From Cenarchaeum sp. SB0675_bin_21 (GTDB taxonomy: Archaea; Thermoproteota; Nitrososphaeria; Nitrososphaerales; Nitrosopumilaceae), in assembly GCA_009843815.1 (NCBI GenBank), contig VYCS01000011.1, positions 1-64,000 of the forward strand: a stretch of DNA of 64,000 bases, written 5' to 3'. Under the pieces are notes generated by a model. The model ran no database searches. It had not been told where the DNA came from and saw nothing but the letters and a program-made list of their open reading frames with translations. Below, piece by piece: positions 8,496-41,170 of the stretch. The position numbers and the translations under genes are program-made. How positions within the stretch are numbered: the stretch's first letter is position 1; the number at the start of each line of letters is the position of its first letter.

Positions 8496-9276
8496 CCTGA
8501 TGATCGGGGCGGTCGTTGCCCTGGTGATTGCTGCCTCTTGGCACATAGAGGCCAGCCCGGTGGAGTTCGCAGAGGGGCTGCCCCGGTTGTGGCAGTTGAT
8601 AGAGGAGGTTATGGTGGAGCTTACCACGGTCACTGATAACATGGCATACAACGCAGTGTGGGCCATGCTAGAGACCATCCAAATGGCATTTATTGGGACT
8701 ATGGTGGGGTATGCGCTGGCCCTGCCCATGAGTCTCCTGGCTTCGCGTAACCTGGCCAGCAGGTGGGTGTATGTTCCCATGCGGGGCCTGCTGGCCATGG
8801 CGCGTACGCTCCCGTCCATAATGTGGGCGCTGCTGTTTATCATAATGGTAGGTCCGGGCCCGTTCGCCGGCATACTGGCCATTACCATGTACACGTTGGG
8901 GTTTGTTGCCAAGTTGCAGTACGAATCCATAGAGGCTGTGGATGCCGATCCTATGGACTCGGCCAGCTCCATAGGGCTCTCCCGGCTGCAGCTGATACGG
9001 TTCGTGGTGATACCCGAGTCTGCCTCCCATCTGTTGGGACACCTGCTGTACATGTTCGACTATAACGTGAGACAGACCAGCATATTGGGACTGGTGGGGG
9101 CCGGTGGGATAGGATTTTACATAATCACATATACCAAGTATCTTCAGTACGGAAAGGCTGTCTTTTTCATGCTGGTGGTACTGGCCACCGTGCTGGTGAT
9201 AGACTGGATAAGCGTCAAGCTGCGGGACCGCTACGTGGTAAAGTCGCAGCGTGGGGTGGCGGCCGATATGCCCTAG
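8479..9276 (+). CDS. phnE: Phosphonate-type ABC transporter permease
   Basis: A 265-residue integral membrane protein with a signal-anchor helix at the N-terminus and about five further membrane segments. The permease EAA-type loop is visible as ESIEAVDADPMDSASSIGLSRLQ, followed by the PhnE hallmark DYNVRQTSILGLVGAGGIGF. It forms the membrane channel for PhnC and PhnD. The start overlaps phnC by 17 nt. The DNA is GC-rich (39 of 60 bases in 8761-8820 are G or C), and the composition drops sharply just after the stop. A fragment of a second phnE with the same C-terminal residues lies at 57281-57418. Confidence 0.9.
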   Translation: MTPKSNLMIGAVVALVIAASWHIEASPVEFAEGLPRLWQLIEEVMVELTTVTDNMAYNAVWAMLETIQMAFIGTMVGYALALPMSLLASRNLASRWVYVPMRGLLAMARTLPSIMWALLFIIMVGPGPFAGILAITMYTLGFVAKLQYESIEAVDADPMDSASSIGLSRLQLIRFVVIPESASHLLGHLLYMFDYNVRQTSILGLVGAGGIGFYIITYTKYLQYGKAVFFMLVVLATVLVIDWISVKLRDRYVVKSQRGVAADMP

Positions 9277-17625: not shown

Positions 17626-17633
17626 CTAAGTGT
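17626..17633. repeat. 8-bp target site duplication, left copy (CTAAGTGT)
   Basis: CTAAGTGT lies immediately outside the left inverted repeat of the tnpB element and is repeated in the same orientation at 19242-19249, immediately outside the right inverted repeat. Confidence 0.75.
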
Positions 17634-17658
17634 GATTCCTCCCACAAAGTCAGGTGAT
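17634..17658 (+). repeat. Left terminal inverted repeat of tnpB element 1
   Basis: This 25-bp arm matches the right arm at 19217-19241 at 22 positions. The three differences are all A versus G. The tnpB start (GTG 17654 or ATG 17657) lies within it. Confidence 0.78.
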
Positions 17659-18649
17659 GGTTGATGTGTCATTGGATAGCGTTAAATACGTCATTAAACC
17701 GTACTGTATGATGGCTCTTGTAAAAAATGGCAGGGCAGTAACACGTCCATACACAAAAAATTTGGGTATGCGGCATGTGTTTGAACATGTCAGGAAGGTA
17801 GCAGAAGTGGCGTACATTATAGCGAATAATACAGGGAGGAATACCTATGGTGTTAACGCATTGATGTATCGTATAATGCGCGGTCCTGACCCCAAAGTAT
17901 ATTCGTCCATAACGCAGACCGCCATACGGGACGGGGTTGCCGCCCATAAAACGTACAATACAAAGACTGCACAGGGCATGAAGGTATCTGAACCTGTATT
18001 CTGTAATCCGGTTGTAAAGTTAAAAAACCAAAATTGGAGGCTGAATCCGATAGCGGGCGGATATATGGCTATTGCAAATGTTGGCTCATCAAAACACCCA
18101 CATATGATAGCAATTCCTATCTCTTCAGATGTGGTACGTAAAATAAGACAAAATGAGTTGGGCAAGTTATGGATTACGCCAACCACATACACCATAACAT
18201 ATCATAATAAAGTGCCCGAGGTTGAAAAACCCCACCCACACGGCAAGTCAGAGATTATCGAGTTGCTTACGGATGTGGGTTGTGTGGGCGGCACATCAAG
18301 GGATGTAATTGGCGTGGATATTAATGAAAAGAACATCACCGTAGGTGATAAAAATACGGTGGTACAGTTTGATCTATCCGATACGATACAGGCCATTGAA
18401 GAGGCAAAGACTGAGGATGCAAACAATACGTATACACGTACACATGATAATATCACATATGCGGCACGTACCGGAAGGCGCATTACACACAAGAAAGAGG
18501 AGGAACGCAGAGAAAAGCAACAAGTCGCACATGGTGGTCACAAGTTACACAGCAAACTCAAACGCAGATACAGGAAACTCAAGAGGGAGGGCAAACACAA
18601 GAGGGCCGCCGAGATAAAGAAGCAGATGCGTATTGAGCATACCACATAA
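17654..18649 (+). pseudogene. tnpB: tnpB-type RuvC nuclease, N-terminal and central part (frameshifted)
   Basis: TnpB proteins are RNA-guided RuvC nucleases of transposons. This 331-codon frame holds the N-terminal recognition region and the first RuvC motif, DVIGVDINEKNITVG (catalytic Asp in GVDI, about residue 217). A long basic region follows (KKEEERREKQQ, HSKLKRRYRKLKREGKHK), typical of the bridge/helical part. The frame stops at TAA 18647-18649, and the rest of the protein continues in the +1 frame from about 18633. The 17-nt overlap has no obvious slippery heptamer, so a simple indel is the likeliest reason. The start is GTG 17654 or ATG 17657. Confidence 0.75.
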
Positions 18650-19217
18650 CCACACAAAGTCAAAAAAGAATGCTAAAAAGCGCAGGGTAGCCAAAGCCAT
18701 GCGCCACCACGAACATGTGCTGAACGTGATAGCACTATGCATTGCACAGTGGGCCGCACAATCCGGGTGTTTGGTTATGTTGGAGGATTTAACCCACATA
18801 TCGTACAATTGGCAGAAGGACGGAAAGTTTGGACGCAGCATGCGTCGCAGATTACATTCTGCCATGATGCGAAAGGCATCGGATTTAATTTATGAAAAGT
18901 CCCGGTTTTTGGGAGTGGAGGCATTACATATGCGTCCACACAACACATCCAAGCTATGTGCTGTATGTAGAACCCCACTAACTGGAACTTATCATAAAAA
19001 AGACTACACCCACTGCCGTACAGTTGGCGTAGATCGTGACGTCAACGCAGTGGAGAACATACGGCGAACAAGCGCCGTATCCCGGTATGGTCGTAAGGTT
19101 TCGGCCAGTCTGGGCGAAGTCCGTCGTGGTGTGGATGTAATCCTCGATCCCACACCACTCATACAGGGTTGCTGGAGCAACTGGGCTGACAGACTATCCC
19201 GCATGGCGGGGGTGTAA
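18633..19217 (+). pseudogene. tnpB: tnpB-type RuvC nuclease, C-terminal part (frameshifted)
   Basis: This frame supplies the rest of the nuclease. The second catalytic acid is in LVMLEDLTHISYN, the zinc ribbon begins LCAVCRTPL, and the third catalytic Asp is in GVDRDVNAVENI. The zinc site looks damaged: after CAVC the expected second CxxC reads HCRTV, so the last Cys is missing. Together with the frameshift this suggests that the copy is decaying. It has no good start of its own and would need frameshifting to be made. The stop TAA (19215-19217) abuts the right inverted repeat. Confidence 0.75.
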
Positions 19218-19241
19218 TCACCCGACTTTGCGGGAGGAACC
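19217..19241 (-). repeat. Right terminal inverted repeat of tnpB element 1
   Basis: The arm is the inverted partner of 17634-17658 (22 of 25 positions). It also contains a small hairpin, CCCG-ACTTTG-CGGG, which may belong to the 3' end of a guide (omega) RNA. An omega RNA is expected at this position for TnpB but cannot be confirmed by eye. Confidence 0.75.
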
Positions 19242-19249
19242 CTAAGTGT
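19242..19249. repeat. 8-bp target site duplication, right copy (CTAAGTGT)
   Basis: Exact direct copy of 17626-17633, directly outside the right end of the element. Confidence 0.75.
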
Positions 19250-39682: not shown

Positions 39683-39690
39683 TACAGAAG
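39683..39690. repeat. 8-bp target site duplication, left copy (TACAGAAG)
   Basis: TACAGAAG directly abuts the left end of the element and is repeated in the same orientation at 41163-41170, directly abutting the right end. Confidence 0.8.
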
Positions 39691-39719
39691 GGGAATTACA
39701 TACAAAAGTACACAGCCTC
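39691..39719 (+). repeat. Left terminal inverted repeat of tnpB element 2
   Basis: The 29-bp arm matches the right arm (41134-41162) at 27 positions; only bases 9 and 10 differ (CA versus TG). Confidence 0.82.
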
Positions 39720-39801
39720 TGTTTTGAGAGTCAATGCTGACCCAACACAGATTTCGTGACTGCATCAATCCCCTTAAATACCATATACCGTATAACACAT
39801 T

Positions 39802-41157
39802 ATGATACGGATAGTCAGGGTACCGCTATACAGGGATGAGTTGTTTGCAGATTGGGCGCACCGCATGGGCCATGTGGTACGGTATGTGTACAATAGGGCC
39901 GTATCAGAGTATATGTTTGGCGGCGAATATATGGAGAGGGTGGTGGTATATATACTACAGCCATTCAAACTACCAAACACACTGGATGGTTTTACATCAG
40001 CTACACTGGAAGATGACTACCAGGTATATGACTTTGGGCCATCAAAGAGGAAACTAAAGTACGGCATGTACAAACAACTTACGGAGTGGCGCGCAGAGTC
40101 AGATTGGATATCTGACTTACCTATGGTATTTGGACGCGGCGCCATACAGGATGCCTCGGTTGCATGTAGAAGAGTTATGGATGACAACTCCAACCACGCG
40201 CCATACCGCCGTAAAGACGGCCGCATTATACTTAGTTCCGTTACACCGCCTGTACGGAAGGATGAGCATACCATACATATCCCCGGATACGGCACAGTAA
40301 AGACCGCCAAGCCCATTGACGTATCATGGGATATGCGGTCATTCAAGATAGTCGATGTCACCAAGAAGGTAACCAAATACACCAAGCCGTCAGACCACAT
40401 GTTTGAATTGCATATTGCAGTGCATATACCGGTAAAACCGCACCGTAATACGGGTATAGTACGGGGTGTTGATGTGGGAGGCAAGCACCTTGCAGTTACG
40501 GTCGATACAAACGGCAATGTAATAATACACAACACACGCCATAGAGAAATCCTGCGGGAGATAGACGCTCTCAAGAGCCTGCGCGACCACAAGGTACGGC
40601 ATGGCCGGAAGTGGCACATATTGAACGACCAAATAAAGCAACTATACAGGAAGGCTGATGGCATCGCCGTAAACACCATAAATCAGACCGTATCGTGTAT
40701 CGTACAAGGCGCGGATGCCATCATAGCCGAGATATTATCTATACAGGACATGACTACACATGGCGGGAATTATAAAAGACACATGAATCGCTCCATGCGG
40801 GAGAATAGACTTGGTGAGTTTCTACGGAAGTTGGCGCAGCGATGCGAGAGGGAGGGAATTCCGCTATGCGGGGTGATGGCCAAATATACAAACCAGACGT
40901 GCCATATGTGTGGTCACGTAGACTCGGAGTCGCGTATCACGTGCGACAAATTCATTTGCACTAACTGTACCAGAGTGTTTCACGCGGATGTCAATGCCGC
41001 CTGGAATATTTTGCATCGGGCGGCGGGGAACGTCGTCCTTAGACGGCCGGGGCATAAGAAGGGCTACAAGCCAACACCCGCCATGCTCCGTTCTATACAA
41101 CGAGGTCGTCAGAAAAGGCATGAGTGTACAGCCGAGGCTGTGTACTTTTGTACATAA
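39802..41157 (+). CDS. tnpB: TnpB-type RNA-guided RuvC nuclease (intact)
   Basis: All features of TnpB are present in 451 residues. The first RuvC motif is VRGVDVGGKHLAVTV (Asp near residue 224), the second acid is in AIIAEILSIQDM, and a four-Cys zinc ribbon CHMCGH...CTNC leads directly to HADVNAAWNI with the third Asp. The C-terminus is basic. TnpB enzymes use a guide RNA copied from the element's 3' end to cut DNA next to a target motif. A hairpin at 41128-41141 (ACAGCC-GA-GGCTGT) inside the end of the gene could be part of such an RNA. There is no TnpA (Y1 or serine) gene beside it. The stop is within the right terminal repeat. Confidence 0.88.
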   Translation: MIRIVRVPLYRDELFADWAHRMGHVVRYVYNRAVSEYMFGGEYMERVVVYILQPFKLPNTLDGFTSATLEDDYQVYDFGPSKRKLKYGMYKQLTEWRAESDWISDLPMVFGRGAIQDASVACRRVMDDNSNHAPYRRKDGRIILSSVTPPVRKDEHTIHIPGYGTVKTAKPIDVSWDMRSFKIVDVTKKVTKYTKPSDHMFELHIAVHIPVKPHRNTGIVRGVDVGGKHLAVTVDTNGNVIIHNTRHREILREIDALKSLRDHKVRHGRKWHILNDQIKQLYRKADGIAVNTINQTVSCIVQGADAIIAEILSIQDMTTHGGNYKRHMNRSMRENRLGEFLRKLAQRCEREGIPLCGVMAKYTNQTCHMCGHVDSESRITCDKFICTNCTRVFHADVNAAWNILHRAAGNVVLRRPGHKKGYKPTPAMLRSIQRGRQKRHECTAEAVYFCT

Positions 41158-41162
41158 TTCCC
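41134..41162 (-). repeat. Right terminal inverted repeat of tnpB element 2
   Basis: Inverted partner of 39691-39719 (27 of 29 positions). It overlaps the last codons and stop (41155-41157) of tnpB, so the end of the protein is encoded by the repeat itself. It also contains GTAC-TTTT-GTAC, a small self-complementary unit. Confidence 0.82.
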
Positions 41163-41170
41163 TACAGAAG
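41163..41170. repeat. 8-bp target site duplication, right copy (TACAGAAG)
   Basis: Exact direct copy of 39683-39690, directly outside the right end of the element. Confidence 0.8.

Follow-up and report, generated by a model that had tools for sequence, protein, structure and literature searches.

How does a gene for TnpB, an RNA-guided DNA nuclease and the ancestor of Cas12, come to lie alone between long terminal inverted repeats and a target duplication, both of which IS200/IS605 and IS607 elements lack? The question is raised by a tnpB element in contig VYCS01000011.1 of Cenarchaeum sp. SB0675_bin_21 (GCA_009843815.1), from a group of sponge-associated ammonia-oxidising archaea; positions 1–64,000 of this contig, the whole stretch analysed, are referred to as the window. 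Our answer, to which we give a probability of roughly 0.68 as a whole, is that the element is mobilised in trans, that it would supply an omega RNA guide, and that homing by TnpB would retain those insertions that lie next to a short motif. The TnpBs compared here form five well-supported groups (lineages I–V), and the window element consists of the following features.

39682, + strand: G immediately before the left duplication, proposed as the core of the lineage I TnpB target-adjacent motif (TAM)
39683–39690, + strand: left copy of the 8-bp target duplication TACAGAAG, with the same length at other copies
39691–39719, + strand: left terminal inverted repeat, its end pattern occurring at 28 places in the genome
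39802–41157, + strand: tnpB, 451 amino acids, with intact RuvC triad and zinc ribbon
41005–41162, + strand: predicted omega RNA scaffold that takes in the 3′ end of tnpB together with the right repeat, with conserved fold and lowered synonymous divergence (dS)
about 41018–41038 and 41042–41110, + strand: predicted stems, with a terminal hairpin at 41118–41151
41134–41162, − strand: right terminal inverted repeat, which would also form the 3′ side of the terminal RNA hairpin
41163–41170, + strand: right copy of the duplication TACAGAAG, with which the guide is predicted to begin (8 nt)

The anatomy that had been claimed for this locus was borne out: the two 29-nt arms matched at 27 of 29 positions (93% complementary in an inverted-repeat comparison), exact copies of TACAGAAG directly adjoined both outer ends, and the tnpB open reading frame ended within the right arm. 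Within the window the 29-mer had no further match at up to 3 mismatches (0.00 expected from shuffles). Between the repeats tnpB was the sole plausible gene, with neither a linked TnpA nor a DDE transposase gene. Comparison with NCBIfam, Pfam and PDB identified the protein as TnpB (135.7 bits against the NCBIfam model guided_TnpB, cut-off 100), and the alignments confirmed the supposed integrity of the RuvC triad, at D224 (40471–40473), E310 (40729–40731) and D396 (40987–40989), and of the four zinc-ribbon cysteines (C367, C370, C386 and C389). The gene is under purifying selection, the ratio of nonsynonymous to synonymous divergence (dN/dS) averaging 0.17, at a dS of 0.63, over the first 402 codons of eight open lineage I copies.

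The host genome is a fragmented, Cenarchaeum-like assembly of 1.61 Mb in 48 contigs, which breaks at these elements. It contained at least 14 copies (eight full-length places and several partial ones) and 28 matching element ends. Exact 8-bp duplications flanked the copies on contigs C34 (ATTTGTAA), C10 (ATAAGTAT) and C41 (ACATCTTA), as well as three copy pairs split over contigs (L018/L022, TTAAGAAC; L018/L028, TATCTTTT; L060/L052, CCCAAGCC); the duplication matched at 7 of 8 positions in the C23 copy, and in L016 the flanks disagreed and no matching duplication was present. A search with the end sequence, proposed earlier as a check, thus returned the same ends and 8-bp duplications at many sites, and their recurrence in independent copies supports the element boundaries. 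Related copies were also present in the sister species, and in a search of 300 genomes from the order close relatives did not extend beyond the genus. An exact pattern search of genome contigs found only Cenarchaeum sp. SB0662_bin_33 and two unrelated organisms, the latter chance-like, and a search of viral contigs found no relative. In the search for an empty site the sister genome aligned on the right flank only, and no junction was found. The window element is probably a non-autonomous transposon that contains nothing but tnpB, a predicted omega RNA overlapping it, and the two inverted repeats.

The same architecture extended to other TnpBs. The host genome contained 44 matches to the TnpB zinc-ribbon domain, and TnpB loci were scanned, without regard to family, for an inverted repeat with an 8-bp duplication around them. 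A score of at least 38 was reached by 24 of 37 loci of this genome against 3 of 150 decoys, by 5 of 7 loci elsewhere in the genus (decoys 0 of 150), and by 6 of 40 loci in other Nitrososphaerales (decoys 0 of 150). Groups I and II had ends of the type GGGAATTATATA, which recurred in variant form in L117; those of groups III and V were of the type GGTTCCTCCCGCAA, and those of group IV either GGAACTGTCAAAAA or TGGGCTG. In several lineage III copies the repeats were perfect over 22–26 bp, and one element (L189) joined a V-like left repeat to lineage III coding sequence and a lineage III motif. Further afield, a single-contig genome of another genus (G187) carried tnpB elements bounded by GGTTCTGTCGGGTTATC and flanked by 8-bp duplications, and a genome of another family (G126) held a perfect example of tnpB between inverted repeats with an 8-bp duplication; the one match in the 12 loci scanned of G087 (2.8 Mb, 37 TnpBs) is probably due to chance. 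Captures of the kind known from eukaryotic Fanzors would therefore have happened in archaea too, in several TnpB lineages. This bears on what TnpB does in elements without a transposase gene; many such tnpB genes appear here as the cargo of transposons that have inverted repeats and duplicate their target.

As to the enzyme that moves them, the window element has ends beginning with GGG as well as an 8-bp duplication, which we take to be hallmarks of IS1595. Each of the three genomes of the genus contained DDE transposases of this family, the host genome with only two matches. In the sister genome G002, the transposase-bearing elements L079 and L080 shared the left end GGGAATTATATAC with window-type tnpB elements. 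IS1595 left ends in the sister genome read GGGAATTATATACTTAAAATC and GGGAATTATATACTTTATAAC; two of its IS1595 elements began with GGGAATTATATACTT, having 13 bp in common with the tnpB elements, and L081 (G002:C160, 3739–6432) was a complete IS1595 element with repeats GGGAATTATAGGGAATAGTG and exact 8-bp duplications AAACATAT. Because of the shared 13-bp start and the complete L081 with its 8-bp duplications, we infer IS1595-type mobilisation for GGGAATTA ends. A DDE transposase acting in trans, as the original prediction had it, is the best reading of how the elements move, given their multiple copies, their 8-bp duplications, the lack of any other gene inside and the left end shared with IS1595, and for lineage-I-type ends this transposase is probably of IS1595 type. 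The search for a full-length transposase with the same ends succeeded in part, yielding IS1595 with the same left end in the sister genome but not the full ends. The other option of the original prediction, a TnpB-like protein of a different transposition lineage, is disfavoured because end types cut across TnpB groups: distant TnpB lineages share one, as do tnpB and IS1595 elements. ISL3, considered as the transposase for GGTTC ends, had no match in five genomes, and an IS1595 remnant beside tnpB on G002:C69, considered as a joint element, reads as a nested or chimeric contig.

More surprising than mobilisation in trans, and a new point, is the sequence that immediately precedes the left duplication, upstream of tnpB and read in tnpB orientation. 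In lineage I the adjoining base was G at 15 of 15 left-end sites (p = 3.5e-11), and within 30 nt no other position came near its strength. Lineage III had TA at 11 of 11 sites (p = 6.9e-12; WTA, with C mostly next), and lineage V had TTG at 8 of 8 (p = 2.7e-14). At the mirror position beyond the right duplication the same bases were at background (G at 4 of 21 sites in I, TA at 1 of 10 in III, TTG at 1 of 8 in V), and sites of IS1595 transposase elements had G in 2 of 8 cases (Fisher p = 0.0003). Lineages III and V differed in motif while having the same outer repeat GGTTCCTCCCGCAA and the same duplication length. The target motif of a TnpB must adjoin, on its 5′ side, the sequence read by the guide from the right end, and since the guide would read from this end into the duplication, the site directly 5′ of the duplication is where a TAM is expected. 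The one-sided lineage motif fits such a TAM and suggests that TnpB decides which insertions arise or survive. Because the duplication parts the motif from the element end, transposase preference and TnpB motif can be separated here, as they cannot in IS605; the strict lineage motif is evidence, at the genomic level, that TnpB influences where elements appear or are kept, and G, WTA and TTG are testable motif predictions for new compact nucleases.

The guide RNA itself would come from the 3′ end of tnpB. In fold predictions the last 158 nt formed conserved helices, the right repeat building the terminal one, and in the terminal hairpin a G-C to C-G double change occurred where the right repeat was altered. 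Paired cells, double-change cells and covariation score were all higher than in 500 shuffles, although kinship inflates such figures, and dS was 0.36 in the scaffold region versus 0.63 elsewhere. The tnpB 3′ end is predicted to fold like an omega RNA with a terminal hairpin derived from the right repeat, and from TnpB biology in general the guide would be the 8-bp duplication plus the downstream flank. A weak hepatitis delta virus (HDV) ribozyme match at 40996–41057 (Rfam, 22 bits, gathering threshold 44) was absent in nine related loci and was judged to be due to chance.

In the mechanism that we favour, a DDE transposase in trans, probably of IS1595 type, would cut and paste the element and create the 8-bp duplication, as its anatomy suggests. 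The 3′ end of the tnpB transcript would then be processed to an omega RNA, with the right repeat as terminal hairpin and the duplication plus downstream flank as guide. Guided TnpB would cleave the uninterrupted allele at the lineage motif directly 5′ of the duplication, and repair with the element-bearing copy as template would restore or spread the element. The motif would stand at every site of a lineage because only insertions beside the right motif are kept.

Several observations weigh against this account. The motif lists were compiled after the pattern had been noticed, and the copies have a common ancestry, even if every one of them marks a separate insertion site. Lineages II and IV showed mixed motifs, and G alone is short for a TnpB motif. 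No transposase with full lineage I ends was found in the host genome, nor could one be linked to the end types of lineages III, IV and V. In the predicted RNA the covariation was modest, doubly changed pairs and pair types not exceeding 500 shuffles.

A first alternative is that TnpB shares in the insertion itself: bound at its motif, it would open the first target bases, where the DDE transposase would insert the element. Across lineages I, III and V the motif was present without exception (34 sites), whereas later selection should leave some recent insertions without it, and the duplicated 8 bp are precisely the bases adjoining the motif, where the R-loop of TnpB would begin. Against this, the guide of an element mismatches new sites, so that targeting would depend on motif recognition alone, and we know of no TnpB that acts in insertion in this way. 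Sequence does not tell targeting from retention, and we regard the cooperation of TnpB with a DDE transposase as unlikely; the RNA-guided nuclease would then set the target of cut-and-paste transposition, and the pairing of OMEGA and DDE systems would have evolved repeatedly in archaea.

Somewhat less probable still is that the motif reflects lineage-specific transposases with an asymmetric target preference, TnpB being a mere passenger. Ends and TnpB lineage do partly co-vary, and most end types were matched to no transposase. However, lineages III and V carry different motifs despite a common outer repeat, and because the lineage III repeats are perfect, a transposase bound to them should give no left-right bias; a repeat-bound transposase therefore fails to explain the one-sided motif. 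Moreover, IS1595 elements with lineage-I-type ends lacked the motif, which stands exactly where that of a TnpB is required. Finally, that these are decayed IS200/IS605 or IS607 copies with chance or assembly-made repeats and duplications is very improbable, even though TnpB otherwise occurs in those families and some contigs look chimeric at repeats (L018), since decoy scans almost never reached such scores and, for the main lineages, the idea is refuted by ends and 8-bp duplications recurring at many independent sites, including in the single-contig genome of another genus.

The IS200/IS605 and IS607 OMEGA systems likewise combine TnpB, a predicted 3′ omega RNA and a motif to the left of the insertion, but the window element has 29-bp inverted repeats and 8-bp duplications and no TnpA inside, and here the duplication stands between motif and element end; the absence of TnpA is a weak distinction, as solo-tnpB members of those families lack it as well. 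With IS1595 the window element shares the left end GGGAATTATATAC and the 8-bp duplication, and L081 also bears passenger genes, namely an N6/N4 DNA methylase and an Eco47II-like restriction endonuclease; unlike IS1595, the tnpB elements have no transposase, and the inner repeat parts differ.

The closest precedent is provided by the Fanzor1/Fanzor2* elements of eukaryotes and their viruses (SfAV, Spizellomyces SpuFz1; PMC10711439, PMC10432273). In both cases a TnpB-family nuclease stands alone between terminal inverted repeats, with target duplications in captured elements, a repeat folded into the guide RNA scaffold (predicted here), a short target-adjacent motif (proposed here) and deletion ghost copies. 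The Fanzors, however, are eukaryotic or viral TnpB homologues with a derived RuvC arrangement, while the host here is an archaeon, and they are traced to one IS607 TnpB lineage, as opposed to several archaeal TnpB lineages here, the window-type lineage I ends resemble IS1595, and the duplication described as part of the scaffold in SfAV/Fanzor2* is here a variable 8 bp that would be guide. The gene of SpuFz1 also lies between inverted repeats, and its measured motif is CATA (PMC10432273); CATA occurred at 4 of 11 lineage III sites, a match that may be coincidence. In the open literature TnpB-family nucleases flanked by both target duplications and inverted repeats were found only among eukaryotic Fanzors (PMC10711439); subscription papers and ISfinder lay mostly outside this search, and an earlier report is possible. 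An inventory of mobile elements in thaumarchaea names IS200/IS605 and IS607 alongside 11 DDE families (PMC6563490); neither TnpB nor IS1595 turned up when its text was searched for these terms.

Comparable to the Fanzor ghosts, five internally deleted TnpB elements of 269–462 bp (L189, L190, L191, L196 and L199) retained their duplications. The window also contains a second TnpB element, of lineage III, with the following features.

17626–17633, + strand: left 8-bp duplication CTAAGTGT, preceded by ATTA
17634–19241, + strand: element with repeats GATTCCTCCCACAAAGTCAGGT and ACCCGACTTTGCGGGAGGAACC
17654–18649 and 18633–19217, + strand: tnpB, broken into two frames
19242–19249, + strand: right 8-bp duplication CTAAGTGT

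Some copies in the host genome had unusual flanks. In L018 (G000:C28:17370–18835) the two flanks carried different 8-bp sequences, matching the flanks of L022 and L028, two copies at contig ends (C15 and C20), which points to either recombination between copies or misassembly. At the right ends of L019 and L024 (G000:C31 and C14) the 8-bp flanks ATAGTTTA and TAAACTAT were exact reverse complements, suggesting two insertions of opposite orientation at one target or an inversion between copies. In L046 (G000:C46), two single copies of GGGAATYAYATACAAAAGTTCAC followed by GAAC, at 8925 and 17958, lay without tnpB near minus-strand gene starts and may be either old solo ends or a common promoter-like element.
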